Origin: Variimorphobacter saccharofermentans
GTDB lineage: Bacteria; Bacillota; Clostridia; Lachnospirales; Lachnospiraceae
Direction: 5' to 3'
DNA length: 64,000 nucleotides
Assembly (NCBI RefSeq): GCF_014174405.1
Contig: NZ_JACEGA010000001.1
Span: 1,362,001 to 1,426,000, forward strand
Shown: piece by piece, positions 36,272-47,753 of the stretch
Position numbering within the stretch: the stretch's first letter is position 1
Layout of the letters: each line of letters opens with the position of its first letter
Notes under the pieces: generated by a model
Databases searched by the model: none
What the model was told of the DNA's origin: nothing
What the model saw: the letters and a program-made list of their open reading frames with translations, nothing else
Program-made: the position numbers and the translations under genes

Positions 36272-36633
36272 GGGGTTGTACTGGTTTCGACGGGGGTTTT
36301 GAAATTGCGGAAGCCATTCGCAGACTAGGACTGCGTCACCAACTTAGAACTAAATATAAACGCAAACGATAATTACGAATTAGCTGCTGCGTAAGCAGTT
36401 TGTCGACCTTAAGCAACTCGCGGCTTAAGACCTCGGCATCAAATTAGCGGGGCCCTCTATTTCCAAAGCTTTGAGGAGGTAGAAGAAACATGAAGCTACC
36501 AAAGCTAAGAGCCTGTCTGTCGGCGCTTAGTGGAGGGAACAGCGAACTTCGGGTTCGCATAAAAGACCGACTGTAATGGGAGAAACTGCAATGAATGGGC
36601 TTTCGGACAGGGGTTCAACTCCCCTCAGCTCCA
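36272..36633 (+). ncRNA. ssrA: Transfer-messenger RNA (tmRNA)
   Basis: The tmRNA rescues stalled ribosomes together with SmpB. The 5' end GGGGTTGTACTGG and the 3' end CAGCTCCA pair to form the acceptor stem (GGGGTTG with CAGCTCC), with the tRNA-like GGGTTCAACTCCC T arm before it. The tag frame runs 36362-36391 and encodes ANDNYELAAA, followed by TAA at 36392. CCA is not encoded and must be added. The mature length is about 362 nt, normal for Clostridia. It normally lies next to smpB; here 10.3 kb separates them. Confidence 0.97.
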
Positions 36634-39657: not shown

Positions 39658-39686
39658 TTGCACGGTAAAACTTGTCGTGATATAAT
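39658..39686 (+). promoter_or_regulatory. SigA promoter of the collar/SLH cluster
   Basis: TTGCAC (39658-39663), 17-bp spacer and perfect TATAAT (39681-39686). The next convincing start codon is at 40010, so the leader would be about 320 nt. The 74-codon open frame at 39705 in this leader lacks a ribosome site. Confidence 0.65.
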
Positions 39687-39789
39687 GGAATAAAAAGTTA
39701 AAAAATGTTATTTTATACATACAGAACGATTAACTATATCGATATTTCATTTGAATATTCTACTCATCAACGCAGCATTTCAAAAATCG

Positions 39790-39834
39790 TACAATGGCTC
39801 TGTAACAAAAATCTTTACAATGGCTCTGTAACAA
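39790..39834 (+). repeat. 19-bp direct repeat in the cluster leader
   Basis: TACAATGGCTCTGTAACAA occurs at 39790-39808 and again at 39816-39834, a 26-bp period with perfect identity over 19 bp. It lies within the putative 5' leader of the surface cluster. Confidence 0.75.
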
Positions 39835-40009
39835 CAATCACCGAAAAATGTAAATCAGGTATGAGACAAATGAAAGTACCGCTTTCATTTGTTGTTAATA
39901 TAAGAAATATCATCAGATACACAGAATAATTCCTTGGCTGACAACAACACAGATCTTGTAGTAGGTATTGTTAATGAATATGAGAAAAATACGGGAAGGG
40001 AGATTTTTT

Positions 40010-40258
40010 ATGGATCAATTTGTAGGCGATATTCAGTTGTTTGCACTCGATTTCCCACCATATGGTTGGATGAAGTGCGAAGGACAGACTCTGAGTACAA
40101 GCGAGTACCAAGTTTTGTTTTCGTTATTAGGGACGAGATTTGGCGGAAATGGTCAGACTACCTTTTGTTTGCCTGACTTAAGAAAAGCTTTGCCAATACA
40201 GGGAATGGGTATGAGTTATTGTATTGCATATTACGGATTGTACCCAATGCCGCAATGA
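40010..40258 (+). CDS. Miniature tail-collar (MdpB-like) protein 1
   Basis: An 82-residue protein with the phage tail-collar (PF07484-type) signature: GWMKCEGQTLSTSEYQVLFS followed by LLGTRFGGNGQTTFCLPDL. Microcystin-dependent-protein-like relatives are usually 170-200 residues; here the middle is missing and the chain passes directly from LPDLRKALP to the family's closing segment YCIAYYGLYP. There is no signal peptide. The start at 40010 follows AGGGAG; the longer frame from 39968 adds unrelated residues. It is the first of four closely spaced genes. Function is unknown in bacteria; no other phage gene is nearby. Confidence 0.8.
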   Translation: MDQFVGDIQLFALDFPPYGWMKCEGQTLSTSEYQVLFSLLGTRFGGNGQTTFCLPDLRKALPIQGMGMSYCIAYYGLYPMPQ

Positions 40259-40302
40259 TTATGAATACTGAGATCAATTATTTGTTATAGGAGGATTATA
40301 TT

Positions 40303-40545
40303 ATGGAGTATTATTATGGACAGATTTGTGTATTTCCTTATATTTTTGTACCTAGGGGATGGAAGCTATGTAATGGAGAGCTCCTTCAAATTTCGCAGAA
40401 TCAGGTGCTGTTCTCCTTGATTGGTACTAAATTTGGAGGAAACGGAACTACTAATTTTGCTCTTCCTAATCTGCAGGGAGCGGAACCGGAGCCCGGCACA
40501 GGCTACTACATATGTGTAGAAGGTGTATACCCAAGCAGAAGTTAG
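40303..40545 (+). CDS. Miniature tail-collar (MdpB-like) protein 2
   Basis: An 80-residue paralogue of the preceding gene, 44 bp downstream. It keeps GWKLCNGELLQISQNQVLFS, LIGTKFGGNGTTNFALPNL and the closing YYICVEGVYPSRS, and again lacks the usual central region. There is no signal peptide. AGGAGG precedes the ATG. The two copies are clearly related but well diverged, suggesting an old duplication and perhaps a heteromeric assembly. Confidence 0.8.
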   Translation: MEYYYGQICVFPYIFVPRGWKLCNGELLQISQNQVLFSLIGTKFGGNGTTNFALPNLQGAEPEPGTGYYICVEGVYPSRS

Positions 40546-40597
40546 GATTATTAGAATAACCCTGAAACTACGAAGGGATTAGAAAGGATGATAAATA

Positions 40598-41626
40598 ATG
40601 GCAGGTAACATCGCTTTGAATAAGTATGCCACTGCAAGTAACTCTGTATTCCCCTTCACACCTGCAAAGGCAGTGAATGGTGTGGAGAGTTACTTAGCAC
40701 GTTGGCTTGGATCACTAAATCAGTCGAATCCTTATAACTGGCTGAGTGTGGATCTTGGCGATCTCTATTGGGTTAATCGCTGGGTCGTTAAACACATGGG
40801 TGAGGTGGGTTGGCCGGACTCTTACAATTTAATCGATTATAAGCTTCAGGGAAGTGTAGATGGTACGAACTGGTCTAATTTAGATTCGGTTACAGGTAAC
40901 ACTGCAAAACTAACAGATAGATCGTTTTTCCCGACTAAGGTGAGATATGCCAGGTTATATATTACATCAGGGATAAGATGTAATCCTAAATTTGCATCGG
41001 TTGCCGGTTTTGAGCTATATGCTGCCGATCCTACTGATTCAAAATTGTCTGGCTTAGTATTGAGTAATTCAATAGCGCTTATTCCAGAATTTGATCCGGC
41101 AGAAAATACATATAATGCCAATGCAAAATATGATGACAGTAGTATTACGGTGACTCCGACTGTGGCGGATCCCAGAGCATCAATCGAGGTGAATGGTTCG
41201 CCTGTGACCAATGGACAGCCATCGAAGCCAATCAGCCTAAATGTAGGTGTTAATAGTGTGATACCGATTAATGTCACCCCGTATATCGGAAAGGTCAATA
41301 CCTACACAATTAATGTAGTAAGAGCGACAAGTCCGTATTTATCGGGACTTACATTACAATCAGGAAGAACGATTATTCCTATCAATCCGGTATTTGAAAA
41401 GAATATATTACATTATTCCGGTGAAATTAATAGAGTGAATAGCCTGACTGTTACAGCGAATGCAGAGGATATCAATACGAAAATCATGATTAAAGGACAA
41501 GATGCCACAAGCGGAGTAGCTATGACCATTCCGGTAAATGTCGGGCTTAATAGTATTGATATTATAGTTGAATCTAAAACAGGGGTTGATTCTAAAACAT
41601 ATGTATGTGACATTGTAGTCACATAA
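40598..41626 (+). CDS. Leaderless discoidin (F5/8 type C) plus cadherin-like protein
   Basis: A 342-residue protein. Residues 1-147 resemble an F5/8 type C carbohydrate-binding domain (NIALNKYATASNS, WLSVDLGDLYWVNRWVV, KVRYARLYI). Two cadherin-like beta-sandwich domains follow (about 150-243 and 246-341), each with the L.L..G...P.F......Y......V...TV..A...A...G pattern. No signal peptide, membrane helix or anchor is present, which is odd for domains nearly always found outside cells. AAAGGATG precedes the start. Spacing to its neighbours is 52 bp on each side. Confidence 0.8.
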   Translation: MAGNIALNKYATASNSVFPFTPAKAVNGVESYLARWLGSLNQSNPYNWLSVDLGDLYWVNRWVVKHMGEVGWPDSYNLIDYKLQGSVDGTNWSNLDSVTGNTAKLTDRSFFPTKVRYARLYITSGIRCNPKFASVAGFELYAADPTDSKLSGLVLSNSIALIPEFDPAENTYNANAKYDDSSITVTPTVADPRASIEVNGSPVTNGQPSKPISLNVGVNSVIPINVTPYIGKVNTYTINVVRATSPYLSGLTLQSGRTIIPINPVFEKNILHYSGEINRVNSLTVTANAEDINTKIMIKGQDATSGVAMTIPVNVGLNSIDIIVESKTGVDSKTYVCDIVVT

Positions 41627-41678
41627 GATATTGTCAGTAACAGTATGTAAATATCGGATATTGGAAAGTGAGAGGTTT

Positions 41679-44600
41679 ATGTATAAAAGAAGAGCAATTT
41701 CACGTTATATATGTTTTATATTTCTACTTAGTTTCTTTTTCTTTTTATTACCAGCTAATATAAAGGCTGCAGTAATCATTGATAATGATAATTTTCTTCA
41801 GGATATTGCGACGGATAGTATGAGGGTAGGAAATGCATTTATAGAACCTATGTATACAATACCTAGTACTGATGGCTCTTATATAGTTAATTATGTAGGA
41901 AGTAGTTATAGTGCCTTTCTTTTAACTTATGAACGTGCGGCAGTGAAGTTAGACTTGTCTGACATAACAGGTACTATCCAGAGTGCGTCATTAGAGTTAT
42001 ATATTGTAGAGGTTAACGGGAATCCTGTTGTTAACGTTATACCTACATCAGACAGTACCTGGAATGAGTATGATACTAGTACATCATTTCCTGCATTTGA
42101 TCCGGAAGAAGCAATATATAGTAATTTTCCGATTACTGCTGCCCATGTCAATTCACCGATAAGCTTCGATGTGACAAGTGACATACAAGCCAGAGTGGAC
42201 AATGGAGATGATAAGGCAGTATATGTTCTTACTGGTCGAGAAGGGACTTTTGATGATGATTTTGCTTTTGTATGTAATCAGCATCCTGATGCTAGTAAAT
42301 GGGCAAAGCTCGTCATTGAGTATGTACCGGCGGCAGCTGCTCCTATTGTCACAGGAACAGCTTATATCAATGATACTACTCCTACTTGGAATTGGTCATC
42401 AGGAGGTAATGGAAACGGTATTTTCCGATATAGGCTGGACAATAGTGATTTATCGATCGGGGCTATTGAGACAGTTGATACGAGCTATACGTCGGAAATT
42501 CCGTTAATGGATGGTAGTCATACGCTGTATGTCCAGGAAAGCAACGGAGCTGGACATTGGTCACCATCTGGAACATATACGATTACTGTTGATACGATAT
42601 CTCCCAATGCTCCATTGGGGTCAGCATCAATATTAACCAATGACCCGACCCCAACCTGGAATTGGACATCTGGCGGTGGAGGAAACGGTAATTATAGATA
42701 CAAGCTGGACAATAGTGATTTATCCGCCGGAGCATCATTAACAACTTCAACAAGTTTTACCCCCGTGAGCCCGTTAGCGGATGGAAGCCATATTCTTTAT
42801 GTACAGGAGAGGGATGATGCAGGTAACTGGTCGTCAAGCAGAAGCTATGAAATAGTGATTGATACAACACCTCCGAATATGCCAATTGTTACAGGAACAA
42901 CACCGGTAACAACCGGTACGCCGACCTGGACCTGGTCATCAGGCGGAGAAGGAATTGGAGACTACAGATATAAATTGGATGATAACGATTTGTCAACATT
43001 CTCGACACTCACTTCAGGAAACAGCTATACTCCTGGTAGTTCTCTTCCGGATGGGGAACATGTGCTTTATGTACAGGAAAAGGATGAAGCAGGTAACTGG
43101 TCATTGAGCGGGAGCTTCAGTATTACGATTGATACCATGAAACCCAACGTAGAAATTGATACCCCGGGACTCTTGGAACCTAGAATAGCCAAAGAATCAC
43201 CTATTCCGGTGACAATAACCTTTAACGAGCCGGTAACAGGCTTTACTGGAAGCGATATTCTTATTAACAACGGTACCATTTTGGCAGGTAGCTTTTCTGG
43301 AAGTGATTCAACCTATACAGTCAATATAACACCCTCGGGCCAGGGAGTAGTTACAATTGATGTACCGGCAGGTGTAGCGCAGGATGCTGCCGGGAACTCC
43401 AACAACGCAGCGGCTCAGATTACCATTAACTACGATAATGTACCACCCACGGATGGAACCATAAGCATCAATGGTGGAGCACCCAATACGACAGATACGC
43501 TTGTCACTTTAACGTTGTCTGCGACAGATGCAGTGCAAATGATAATCAGTGAGGACGTTACCTTTACGGACGCAAGCTATCAACCATATGCTACAAGCGT
43601 AAACTTTGAATTAAGTAATGGAGATGGTGAAAAAACCGTATACGTAAAATTCAAGGATGCAGCGGGGAATGAGACGGAAGCAATCAGTAGTACAATTATA
43701 CTGGATGCAACGATCCCCATAGTCTTTTTCAGCTCATCAGAGCAAAATCCAACGAGTAAGTCACCATTTTCGGTTGCAATAATCTTCAGTGAGAATGTAA
43801 CAGGCTTTACAGAAAATGATATTGTAGTAGGGAATGGTACTATCAGCTCATTATTGGGATTCGGATCTGTGTATACTGTGAATGTTACACCTGCAGCAGA
43901 TGGTGATGTGACACTGGATATGGCCAATGGAGCAGTTCAGGACATAGTCGGCAATGATAATATGGCTCCACTTCAGTTCAGAATAACATACGATTCTCTG
44001 CCACCCACTGGTGGGACAGTAAGTATTAACGGTGGTGCAACCTATGCGAATAGTTCCACTGCAACGCTGACTCTATCTGCCACAGATGCGGACTATATGA
44101 TAATAAGTGAGAACAGCGATTTTAGCGGAGCTAGTTATGAAGCATATGCAACAAATAAGAGCCTTGAACTAAGCGCCGGATCAGGTAATAAAACGGTATA
44201 TGTCAAGTTCAAGGATGAGGCAGGCAATCAGAGTGAAGTAATCAGTGATTCCATAATATTGGATATGGATAGGCCTACGATAGAAATTGTAACTACCGGC
44301 CCAAATCCAACCAATAGTAATTCGATTCCGATTACAATAACCTTTAGTGAGCCTGTAACGGATTTTAGTATAAGTAAAATTGTTACTACCGGTGATATCA
44401 GTGATTTTAGTGGAGATGGGACAGTATATACTTTTATACTGAGTCCGAATATAGCAGGTATAGTAGATATTACATTTACAATAACGATAGTTGCGGATAC
44501 AGTACATGATCAGGTCGGTAATGGTAATTCACTAACTGAGTATTCCATAAATTATGATACTGAGGCTCCTACGTTGGGGATAGTTCAAATCAACAGCGGT

Positions 44601-47600
44601 GATTCCTATACGAACAGTAGAGAAGTTATATTGTCATTCTTTGCATCGGGTGCGACTGTGATGATGATAAGTGAAGACGAGAATTTTGATGGAGCTAGCT
44701 ATGAGGCTTATCATACCAACAAGAACTTTACCTTAAGCTCAGGCGATGGTAATAAAAGAGTATATGTAAAATATAAGGATGCTACCGGCAATGAGACAAC
44801 TTATGATATACATGATGATATCATACTGGAGACATCACAACCTTCAGTAACCATACTATTAGATGGAACATTTGAGGGCAAAGAATCGACTAATGAATCA
44901 TCCATCGATTTTCGAATCGAGTTTAGTGAAACGGTATCCGGTTTTGATTTAAATGACATAACTATAGTGAATGGCTCTGTTTCTAGTTGGTTTGGGGACG
45001 GGCAAGTTTATTCAGTATCGATTCTTCCTTTAGCCCAGGGAACGGTGACTGTGAGTATGGATAGCGGAAGGGTACAGGATGCAGCGGGTAATAATAATAC
45101 TGCTGCTCAGCCGATCAGTATAAACTATGACAGCATTCGGCCGTCTGTTACTGTATTCGGTACATCGCCTAATCCGACAGGTGATACACCAATACAGATT
45201 AATATAAACTTCACTGAGCCTGTGACAGGATTTACAGCCGGTGATATTACAGTCACAAACGGCACAATGAGTAATTTTAGTGGAAGCGGAGCGAATTTTA
45301 CAGTAGATGTTACACCTGCAACTGATGGAGAGGTATCGGTAGCTATTCCGGAAGGGATGGTTACGGATTCGACCGGCAACACGAATACAGGATCAAATCT
45401 CTGGGTTACGACCTATGTTGCACCGCTTACTGTAACTTACAACTATAATTACGATTCAGAAGGAGTATATACTACTCTGGCGAATGTTCCATATGGTAGT
45501 GCAATCACTAAGCCATTAACTAATCCGACACGAACCGGGTATCGCTTCGAAGGCTGGTACAAAGAAGCAGAGTGTATTAATCCATGGAATTTTGCGAGTG
45601 ATAAGGTTACCAGCGATTCAAATATTTATGCCAATTGGGTAGCAAAAAACCAGGTATCCATCACGGAGGACATACAGGAATATTTGTATGATGGAGTGAA
45701 AAAGAGTTTTGTAATAAGTGGTATGCCGGATGATAACTTCATAATTACCTATAATCAGGGCTCAAGCAATGTTGATCCTGTTAGCCCGGGAAGTTATAAT
45801 GTTGTAATTAGTAGAGCAGAGGATGATACCTATGTCGCTTATAACAAATCAATTACTGGAGGTCTTGTAATTATTCCTTCTCCGATAACGATAGCAGCAA
45901 TTACAGGAGTTGAAGTACCTAGGATAGGGAGAACACCAGTGATTGCTATCACCGAGACAGCACAGTATACAGGAATGGTTACTTGGAGTCCGGTAGTCAC
46001 CTCATTTGCCTCCAATACGGTCTATACCGCTACCATTACCCTGACACCTAAGACAGGCTATACATTGAGCGGAATAACTGAGAACTTCTTCACTGTAGCT
46101 GGAGCAACAACGACCAATGAAGCTAATTCGGGCATTGTCACAGCAGTGTTCCCGAATACCGGAACAAGCCAGTCAGAGGGAGGCGGAGGCGGTGCGGGTA
46201 CTGCATCCACAACACCTAATACTCCGACATATAATGCAAATGTTAAAACAGATAGCGGTCAGACCTCTTTGCTACCGGCCAGTGTTGATAATAAGACAGG
46301 AAGAGTAAGTGTTAACATTGATACGAGCAACAGTCTGCTATCAAATGGGGAATCTGTGACTATTAATATGCCATCCATAAGCGGTGTTAATTCCTATACT
46401 CTTGGTATTCCTGTTCCAAGCCTGTCCACTTCGAAAAGACAAAGGTCAATTATACTCCATAGTGATGCAGGCAGTATAAATATTCCGTCCAATATGTTAG
46501 CAGGAATTAAGAACCTGAGCAATAGCGCCGATACAAAGGGGACTAAGGCGGAAATTACTATTAGCCAAAGTGATAAGACCAATTTACCTAAGAAGGTTAA
46601 GGATGCTATTGGTGACAAACCTGTTATTCAACTTTCATTGTCCATTGATGGCAAACTGGTGGAATGGAATAATCCTAATGCACCGATAGCGGTATCCATA
46701 CCCTATAAACCCTCCGGCGAAGAGCTCGCTAATTACGAGAACATTGTTGTTTGGTATATTGATAGTAATAACAAAGTGGTTGCAGTACCAAATGGCCGTT
46801 ATGACCCGGCTACAGGCACCGTTAAATTCTTTGTTACCCATTTCAGTGATTATGCGGTAGCATATGTAGACAAGAACTTCAATGACCTTAATGACGTAAA
46901 ATGGGTTGAAAAAGCGATCGATGTCTTGGTTGCTAAAGGTATTATGGACGAAACCGGTGATGGTACTTTCTCGCCGGCAAAGAAAATTACCAGAGCGGAC
47001 TATATCGTATGGCTTGTAAGAACTCTTAATCTTACTGCGACCCTTGATGATAACTTTGATGATGTTAAACCGAACGCATCCTATTACGAAGCAGTGGGTA
47101 TCGCTAGAAAACTGAATATCATCTTGGACGATAGGGATAACCTGTTTCATCCGAAGGATAAAATATCCCGACAGGATATGATGGTACTGACTACCAGGGC
47201 TCTCATGATCAGCCAAGGCCTGAAGATTACGAAGGATAATACGGTATTAGATAAGTTCAAAGACAAAGAGGATATTGCCGACTATGCAAGAAGCAGCCTT
47301 GCATCGCTTGTCAAGAATGGACTGACTGTCAGCTCCAGTAATAAATTAAAGCCCAATGAGAATGCAACACGGGCAGAGGCAGCAGCGTTGCTCTACAGCA
47401 TATATAATAAATACACGAATGTCCCGACAGCTGCCGTTGATGACACAGCTGTTGAGGCACCTTATCCGATTACCGCACCGGGTAACCTCAAGGCAGTTTC
47501 CACAGGTAAAAACAGTGTAAAGCTCACATGGGATACAGTAGCAGGAGCAACAAAGTATGTGATTTATCAAGCAACCTCCAAGAATGGAACCTATAAAAAG

Positions 47601-47753
47601 CTGGCTGAAACTACATCAACCAGTTATACTAGTAAAAAGCTTACCACGAACAAGAAGTATTACTATAAGGTTAGAGCATATCGCTTGATTGACAAGAAGA
47701 AGGTATATGGAGATTACTCCTCGGTCGTATCAGCGAAACCGACTCAACCTTAA
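41679..47753 (+). CDS. Giant SLH-anchored multidomain surface protein
   Basis: A 2,024-residue secreted protein. In order: signal peptide (1-32); a DNRLRE/CBM96-like domain (about 40-212); three similar units with PTWNWSSGG...YRYKLDNSDLS (about 225-487); about eight Ig-like domains alternating two types (about 487-1247), one with IPVTITFNEPVTGFTGSDI and one with GGTVSINGG and KTVYVKFKDEAGN; an InlB-B/Flg_new repeat (RTGYRFEGWYKEAECINPW, about 1265-1325); a glycine-rich linker near 1505; a domain of unknown type; three SLH domains (about 1736-1912); and a C-terminal fibronectin type III domain (about 1931-2023). SLH domains bind pyruvylated wall polymer. The start at 41679 has a GAGAGG site; the frame from 41631 does not. 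Confidence 0.88.
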   Translation: MYKRRAISRYICFIFLLSFFFFLLPANIKAAVIIDNDNFLQDIATDSMRVGNAFIEPMYTIPSTDGSYIVNYVGSSYSAFLLTYERAAVKLDLSDITGTIQSASLELYIVEVNGNPVVNVIPTSDSTWNEYDTSTSFPAFDPEEAIYSNFPITAAHVNSPISFDVTSDIQARVDNGDDKAVYVLTGREGTFDDDFAFVCNQHPDASKWAKLVIEYVPAAAAPIVTGTAYINDTTPTWNWSSGGNGNGIFRYRLDNSDLSIGAIETVDTSYTSEIPLMDGSHTLYVQESNGAGHWSPSGTYTITVDTISPNAPLGSASILTNDPTPTWNWTSGGGGNGNYRYKLDNSDLSAGASLTTSTSFTPVSPLADGSHILYVQERDDAGNWSSSRSYEIVIDTTPPNMPIVTGTTPVTTGTPTWTWSSGGEGIGDYRYKLDDNDLSTFSTLTSGNSYTPGSSLPDGEHVLYVQEKDEAGNWSLSGSFSITIDTMKPNVEIDTPGLLEPRIAKESPIPVTITFNEPVTGFTGSDILINNGTILAGSFSGSDSTYTVNITPSGQGVVTIDVPAGVAQDAAGNSNNAAAQITINYDNVPPTDGTISINGGAPNTTDTLVTLTLSATDAVQMIISEDVTFTDASYQPYATSVNFELSNGDGEKTVYVKFKDAAGNETEAISSTIILDATIPIVFFSSSEQNPTSKSPFSVAIIFSENVTGFTENDIVVGNGTISSLLGFGSVYTVNVTPAADGDVTLDMANGAVQDIVGNDNMAPLQFRITYDSLPPTGGTVSINGGATYANSSTATLTLSATDADYMIISENSDFSGASYEAYATNKSLELSAGSGNKTVYVKFKDEAGNQSEVISDSIILDMDRPTIEIVTTGPNPTNSNSIPITITFSEPVTDFSISKIVTTGDISDFSGDGTVYTFILSPNIAGIVDITFTITIVADTVHDQVGNGNSLTEYSINYDTEAPTLGIVQINSGDSYTNSREVILSFFASGATVMMISEDENFDGASYEAYHTNKNFTLSSGDGNKRVYVKYKDATGNETTYDIHDDIILETSQPSVTILLDGTFEGKESTNESSIDFRIEFSETVSGFDLNDITIVNGSVSSWFGDGQVYSVSILPLAQGTVTVSMDSGRVQDAAGNNNTAAQPISINYDSIRPSVTVFGTSPNPTGDTPIQININFTEPVTGFTAGDITVTNGTMSNFSGSGANFTVDVTPATDGEVSVAIPEGMVTDSTGNTNTGSNLWVTTYVAPLTVTYNYNYDSEGVYTTLANVPYGSAITKPLTNPTRTGYRFEGWYKEAECINPWNFASDKVTSDSNIYANWVAKNQVSITEDIQEYLYDGVKKSFVISGMPDDNFIITYNQGSSNVDPVSPGSYNVVISRAEDDTYVAYNKSITGGLVIIPSPITIAAITGVEVPRIGRTPVIAITETAQYTGMVTWSPVVTSFASNTVYTATITLTPKTGYTLSGITENFFTVAGATTTNEANSGIVTAVFPNTGTSQSEGGGGGAGTASTTPNTPTYNANVKTDSGQTSLLPASVDNKTGRVSVNIDTSNSLLSNGESVTINMPSISGVNSYTLGIPVPSLSTSKRQRSIILHSDAGSINIPSNMLAGIKNLSNSADTKGTKAEITISQSDKTNLPKKVKDAIGDKPVIQLSLSIDGKLVEWNNPNAPIAVSIPYKPSGEELANYENIVVWYIDSNNKVVAVPNGRYDPATGTVKFFVTHFSDYAVAYVDKNFNDLNDVKWVEKAIDVLVAKGIMDETGDGTFSPAKKITRADYIVWLVRTLNLTATLDDNFDDVKPNASYYEAVGIARKLNIILDDRDNLFHPKDKISRQDMMVLTTRALMISQGLKITKDNTVLDKFKDKEDIADYARSSLASLVKNGLTVSSSNKLKPNENATRAEAAALLYSIYNKYTNVPTAAVDDTAVEAPYPITAPGNLKAVSTGKNSVKLTWDTVAGATKYVIYQATSKNGTYKKLAETTSTSYTSKKLTTNKKYYYKVRAYRLIDKKKVYGDYSSVVSAKPTQP

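Follow-up and report, generated by a model that had tools for sequence, protein, structure and literature searches.

Phage-type mini-collars form a conserved module with a leaderless F5/8C-cadherin protein and an exported giant in Variimorphobacter saccharofermentans and other genomes

We examined a stretch of 64,000 nucleotides from Variimorphobacter saccharofermentans (contig NZ_JACEGA010000001.1, positions 1,362,001 to 1,426,000), here referred to as the window, in which four genes encode two very short collar proteins (mini-collars), a protein with F5/8 type C (F5/8C) and cadherin-like domains, and a giant protein with surface-layer homology (SLH) domains. The mini-collars are inherited together with the stand-alone F5/8C-cadherin protein and the exported giant. 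The best reading of this module, to which we give about even chances, is an assembly of the three kinds of protein on the cell surface, in which a hub would dock on the giant and serve adhesion. The genes and the main parts of the giant are as follows:

40010..40258, plus strand: mini-collar protein 1, 82 aa, no signal peptide (PF07484 Collar, 3e-25)
40303..40545, plus strand: mini-collar protein 2, 80 aa, no signal peptide (PF07484 Collar, 5.4e-25)
40598..41626, plus strand: leaderless protein of 342 aa with F5/8C (residues 11-124) and two cadherin-like stretches (Pfam)
41679..47753, plus strand: exported giant of 2024 aa with signal peptide, three Big_13, five Big_12, Flg_new, three SLH and fn3 (Pfam, hydropathy)
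41679..41771, plus strand: signal peptide of the giant, about residues 1-31 (hydropathy 2.99, preceded by basic residues; heuristic)
46794..47402, plus strand: SLH region of the giant, about residues 1706-1908 (PF00395 in three stretches, best 1734-1775)

The layout, domains and spacing given in an initial annotation of the window were confirmed by the open reading frames (ORFs), by Pfam and by intergenic gaps of 44, 52 and 52 bp, all four genes lying on the plus strand, each behind a Shine-Dalgarno-like stretch (by eye). The mini-collars consist of little beyond the Pfam Collar domain (88.4 and 87.6 bits against a curated score of 24) and the 4.16-Mb genome has no collar match besides these two. 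The chain of the third protein starts at its F5/8C domain (3.8e-13), and the cadherin-like match (4.1e-26) covers two stretches. The giant has eight Ig-like stretches (Big_12 and Big_13) and, with its signal peptide and three SLH domains, has the features of an SLH surface protein; NF033190 also matched residues 1706-1908, but far below its own cut-off. Leaders were called throughout by a heuristic, the best hydropathy over 13 residues, which gave 1.08, 1.24 and 0.78 for genes 1-3 and 2.99 for the giant, in agreement with the earlier observation that only the fourth protein bears a leader.

The mini-collars had also been described as half the usual size, and the segment between the collar motif and the closing strand bears this out, with 5-7 residues in four mini-collars (two from the window, two from locus L046) against a median of 95 (range 89-112) in 73 long forms. 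Neither window mini-collar contains a histidine, and both lack the ~95-residue HxH segment of the long collars. In structure prediction, the collar fold was recovered over 73 of 80 residues against T4 gp12, closing strand included, by a VIA-align match list that leaves room for other folds. The model shows the mini-collar as a predicted complete minimal collar domain, with helix, strands and distant closing strand and without the insert of the phage tail tip. The PHROGs matches restate the collar domain.

Collars are rare. PF07484 was sought in overlapping sets of 34 genus, 200 family, 392 order, 391 class and 398 phylum genomes, each including the window genome, and was matched in 1, 3, 13, 20 and 21 genomes, respectively. 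The initial annotation had made its proposal depend on conservation of the neighbourhood, and the same module was found in 15 genomes of 9 genera, counted from the loci of short collars: the window genome (G000) and G054 (family f1), G308 (f17), G363 and G225 (f2), seven of genus g355 (f50; G862, G712, G813, G930, G638, G605 and G774), G1322 (f230), G1173 (f168) and G1110 (f118). Genus g355 is Ruminiclostridium, and the DNA of G862 is the same as a contig of R. hungatei. Three further genomes, G676, G654 and G450, have short collar frames that belong to other types.

The number of mini-collars per module is 1, 2 or 3, never more (32 in all). The F5/8C-cadherin protein that goes with them is leaderless and 333-448 residues long, except in G1110, where a broken reading frame leaves 242. 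A strong hydrophobic leader was detected in 13 of the giants (the sequence of the G638 giant is broken by a stretch of N), and the remaining two run off their contigs; a Pfam wall anchor was found in 5 of the 7 giants scanned. The giant directly adjoins the F5/8C gene in 14 modules, and in G1173 a mini-collar lies between them. As the mini-collar genes are divergent from the F5/8C gene in several modules (the g355 species with three mini-collars, G363 and G1173), a single operon is not the rule. G308 carries a second copy of the module (L039) in which the F5/8C and giant genes are broken, a case of decay after duplication, and G225 has one additional mini-collar that stands by itself (L041). 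Inspection of the modules by eye revealed no export gene. A methyltransferase-like protein (recognized by eye; no Pfam match) was rejected as a core part, being present in 3 of 11 module genomes and not in that of the window; in G054 and G308, which represent two genera, it lies beside the module (L012:7208-8233 and L038:10020-11153) and is 45% identical.

The joint inheritance was followed with a profile of the F5/8C-cadherin protein. In the 391 class genomes, with up to four candidates scored per genome (E 1e-40), matches starting at the F5/8C domain were obtained in eight genomes, exactly those with mini-collars, seven of which belong to one genus and are not independent events. In two other class genomes only the cadherin part was matched, inside frames of 794-1523 residues. 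When all candidates were scored in 17 chosen genomes, the stand-alone protein was present in the 7 known module genomes and in none of the 10 with three-in-one or other collars. In the tree of mini-collars, the first of the window is sister to the first of G1322 (97/91) and the second groups with the second of G1322 (99/97), and the F5/8C protein of the window is 51% identical to that of G1322, 45% to that of L046 and 37-41% to those of four other modules. Since G1322 is related to the window genome at the level of phylum only, the module seems to move as a unit. From its patchiness and the pairing with a genome of another class, it is probably an accessory cell-surface module of Bacillota spread by horizontal transfer. 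The ratio of non-synonymous to synonymous substitution rates (dN/dS) was 0.13-0.51 over 24 comparisons of mini-collar and F5/8C genes among four g355 genomes, which indicates that the module genes are under purifying selection in these relatives.

Related proteins link the same domains to export. L008 (Paenibacillus cellulosilyticus), L201 and L203 each encode a protein in which exactly three mini-collars are joined to a signal peptide, Flg_new repeats and three SLH domains, and in L200 a leader-bearing three-collar protein adjoins a leader-bearing protein with F5/8C and SLH. Thus, each kind of domain that is leaderless in the window has a leader-bearing, SLH-linked relative. No other evidence speaks more strongly for a place of the module outside the cell. 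The natural fusions, together with L200, lend support to display through the SLH protein, as had been proposed from the window. In a fourth pattern (L043, L207, L208, L209, L211 and L212; not every element in each), a divergent leaderless mini-collar precedes an exported giant near a large LuxR-type ATPase regulator. The mini-collar lies between the regulator and the giant at L043:4045-7800, L207:4671-8519 and L209:5335-9102, the Pfam scan of the regulator covering L043. Two plasmids of Polaromonas naphthalenivorans carry single mini-collars of 80 residues (L006:8001-8243 and L007:6001-6243), with no giant or F5/8C protein among their annotated neighbours.

Collars were examined in 80 genome loci, a biased sample, being the best 80 of at least 593 stretches nearest to the mini-collar query. 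Exactly three tandem collars were present in 69 of them, one in 7, two in 3 and four in 1, and three in 60 of the 70 loci away from contig ends. GNAT was a neighbour in 57 loci and a DUF6916 protein in 40. The cell-encoded long collars of this sample (L046-L125) recur as exact tandem triplets over many phyla, an operon type that deserves its own study. Three loci (L059, L068 and L102) have a leader-like stretch on every one of their three collars, and L086 has a borderline one on a single collar of its three; the collars of the other 76 loci have none. Among 80 viral loci, 77 had one collar and 3 had three, and 2 of the 86 collars were short. Two of these three triplets from the viral collection, L217 and L218, consist of leader-bearing collars and lie on contigs of 4.6-5.2 kb that resemble bacterial chromosome. 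The long-collar loci showed a weak association with giant ORFs (40 of 54 loci against 56 of 108 control points), where loci and control windows were defined differently and the ORF caller inflates GC-rich ORFs. A trimeric fold of gp12 is given in the title of a 2003 structure paper, as cited in PMC4949626, and with the triplets of the genome loci it points to heterotrimers.

From fold and copy number we infer that the mini-collars form a trimeric hub without a receptor-binding tip. Modelling covered single mini-collar chains, and the triplets and three-in-one fusions are indirect pointers to a trimer; a single-chain three-collar protein suited to structure prediction was sought in the viral contigs and not found. 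As in the gp12 collar, three mini-collars would come together, in A3, A2B or ABC trimers that fit the 1, 2 or 3 mini-collar genes per module, and would form a rigid hub. This hub would hold the F5/8C-cadherin protein, a likely glycan binder, and dock on the exported giant, by which the wall would carry a multivalent adhesive structure.

The region upstream of the cluster was searched for signals of expression, and three features were noted:

39658..39686, plus strand: candidate sigma-A promoter, TTGCAC-N17-TATAAT with TGA before the -10 (consensus match, not above chance)
39790..39808, plus strand: 19-bp leader repeat, copy 1 (exact match)
39816..39834, plus strand: 19-bp leader repeat, copy 2 (exact match)

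The one promoter claimed by the initial annotation is plausible from its perfect -10 with TGA ahead of it, but the -35 matches at only 3 of 6 positions and the 28 promoter-like sites in the region are no excess over shuffles (32.0 +/- 6.1). The 5′ leader of the cluster contains the two repeats at a spacing of 26 bp, and their 19-base core pattern, with up to two mismatches, occurs at these two places only in the whole genome. A riboswitch in the leader was rejected, since the Rfam gathering score was reached in the window only by the transfer-messenger RNA (tmRNA) at 36272 and the folding of the leader did not surpass that of shuffles (z 0.69). Among 17 upstream regions from 13 modules (G813 and G930 left out), 6 have a near-consensus sigma-A promoter (at most one mismatch), against a mean of 0.34 and a maximum of 4 in 300 shuffled sets, none of which reached 6; several of the six regions are related loci, which inflates the count, and that of the window is not among them. 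One weak sigma-E-like site (L042) was found in the 13 upstream regions scanned, and no sigma-E/K-like site upstream in the window. The putative sigma-A promoters of the relatives favour expression in vegetative cells and count against a part in the spore coat.

The five neighbours scanned with Pfam are ordinary (TetR, PBP, a flavodoxin/ferredoxin protein, Fic and GH8), with no phage-type gene, GNAT or DUF6916 among them. The GH8 gene is common to 14 other genomes of the genus, and no synteny was seen in the two inspected (G552, and G556 on a 5-kb contig). An island at the tmRNA gene was rejected, the 3′ end of the tmRNA having no second copy in the window, as was a known anti-phage defence system, none of 6 proteins (four from the window) matching PADLOC models at E 0.001.

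Several observations weigh against a surface assembly. Cysteine makes up 56 of the 2,599 residues in the 32 mini-collars (2.15%), 48 of 6,011 in the 15 F5/8C proteins (0.80%) and 67 of 17,342 in 12 mature giants (0.39%), the incomplete giants of G363, G638 and G1110 being left out. Exported proteins of monoderm bacteria are ordinarily poor in cysteine, and the mini-collars are therefore unlike ordinary exported proteins of Gram-positives, which speaks against the non-Sec exit suggested by the initial annotation. The collar region of the leader-bearing proteins has no cysteine in L201 and L203, one in L008 and six in L200, and its absence from the first two looks as if exposure had selected against it. 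Anaerobic life and an old motif cysteine are alternative reasons for the high content of the mini-collars. In addition, 2 of the 6 giants scanned besides that of the window have no Pfam wall anchor (G1322 and G1173), none of the 33 other genomes of the genus has a collar, and a fixed heterotrimer fails in the mini-collar module because the mini-collar count varies from 1 to 3. RhiA, encoded beside RhiB, is described in passages of PMC2275737 and PMC13133039 as a cytoplasmic marker absent from the supernatant; the collar protein of the rhi operon is RhiB, not RhiA (PMC13133039).

Perhaps the giant alone reaches the surface and the mini-collars and the F5/8C-cadherin protein remain in the cytoplasm, where they may help assembly as a scaffold or do something separate; we take this explanation seriously, if with clear reservations. 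The cysteine content and the use of RhiA as a marker (PMC2275737) are in its favour, and so are the leaders: no leader-like stretch was detected in the 32 mini-collars (best 1.80, three over-long starts corrected) or the 15 F5/8C proteins (best 1.55), far from the 2.71-3.38 of 13 giants, and the collars are leaderless in the 76 genome loci mentioned above. It is opposed by the signal peptide and SLH domains of the three-in-one relatives, by the three loci with a leader on all three collars, and by F5/8C and cadherin-like domains being extracellular as a rule. A collar protein is also listed in the exoproteome of Ruegeria pomeroyi (PMC4949626). Another reading, which is unlikely, has the collar trimers and F5/8C protein released through lysis or vesicles as a soluble particle, which would attach only afterwards to the SLH protein or a target cell; lack of leaders would permit it, and COG4675 'microcystin-dependent' proteins are repeatedly listed in a soil metaproteome, compartment unspecified (PMC5579227), but no lysis or vesicle gene was evident by eye in the module loci.

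An equally low probability is given to spore-surface proteins made in the mother cell and freed by its lysis with no need of a leader. Outer spore proteins without a leader are common in the group of the window organism and its genome encodes Spo0A, which alone would allow such a role; it is disfavoured by the sigma-A promoters and the near absence of sigma-E-like sites in the relatives, by the Sec signal and SLH domains of the partner giant, and by mini-collars in Polaromonas, which makes no spores. A prophage or tailocin remnant, considered unlikely from the start, is now highly improbable: the fold is that of phage tail tips, the structure library includes a 96-residue phage collar and the two short viral-locus collars are on record, but no phage gene was found among the scanned neighbours (in other module loci this was checked by eye), the 80-residue protein had no tblastn match in 50,697 phage records at 1e-3, and the relatives show signs of purifying selection and a conserved surface context.

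The observation made on the cluster was right and is more significant than sequence alone could tell. If the surface assembly holds, a large bacterial gene family, named 'tail fiber protein' in plasmid records, would be linked to the cell surface through natural fusions and a conserved module; trimers and triplets give a prediction of stoichiometry; natural insert-free collars would offer a very small scaffold of the phage tail-tip type; and the question of export is raised, as conserved partners of a Sec-exported wall protein are yet leaderless. We suggest, with considerable doubt, that the phage tail-tip collar was adopted as a general building block of bacterial surfaces, its three-subunit hub occurring as exact gene triplets across phyla, as wall-anchored single-chain triplets, and here as collars of the smallest size, free of the insert and accompanied by a leaderless lectin-like protein, both reaching the surface along a route not previously described. 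PubMed Central (PMC), whose coverage leaves out subscription papers and preprints, yielded no paper about mini-collars, triplets of collars or DUF6916 operons, broader queries being judged by their top 40 and 10. Collar and phage proteins were absent from the main text of an R. cellulolyticum proteome paper (PMC5256962) in a term search. The parts are known, and their arrangement is new relative to the PMC literature searched.

Among known systems, the collar of the T4 short tail fibre gp12 (PF07484) shares the fold. The 73 aligned mini-collar residues span 189 of gp12, where a part of about 116 residues, after the collar and before the closing strand, is unmatched; this part of gp12 binds the receptor. 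It belongs to a phage, whereas the window mini-collars have no phage context. The long collars (MdpB/COG4675 type, 165-200 aa, annotated as tail fiber protein; MrpB is another, and the domain of RhiB is documented in PMC13133039) share the motif and closing segment and are likewise cell-encoded and mostly leaderless; in plasmid loci L009-L011 they adjoin giant Ig-like, VCBS or YDG proteins. They differ in the 89-112-residue segment, in their triplets and in their GNAT and DUF6916 neighbours, where the window has two mini-collars and neither neighbour among those scanned. The MAT fibres of Bdellovibrio are similar as phage-like trimeric adhesive fibres on the cell surface (PMC10769870), but they are long and have a signal peptide, and the word 'collar' is nowhere in the main text of that paper. 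The three-in-one SLH proteins (L008, L201 and L203) are single chains with a Sec signal, keep the motif cysteine in 3 of 12 copies (by eye, L200 included) and, in L201 and L203, have no F5/8C-cadherin gene, unlike the window module; what they share with it is insert-free mini-collars tied to SLH.

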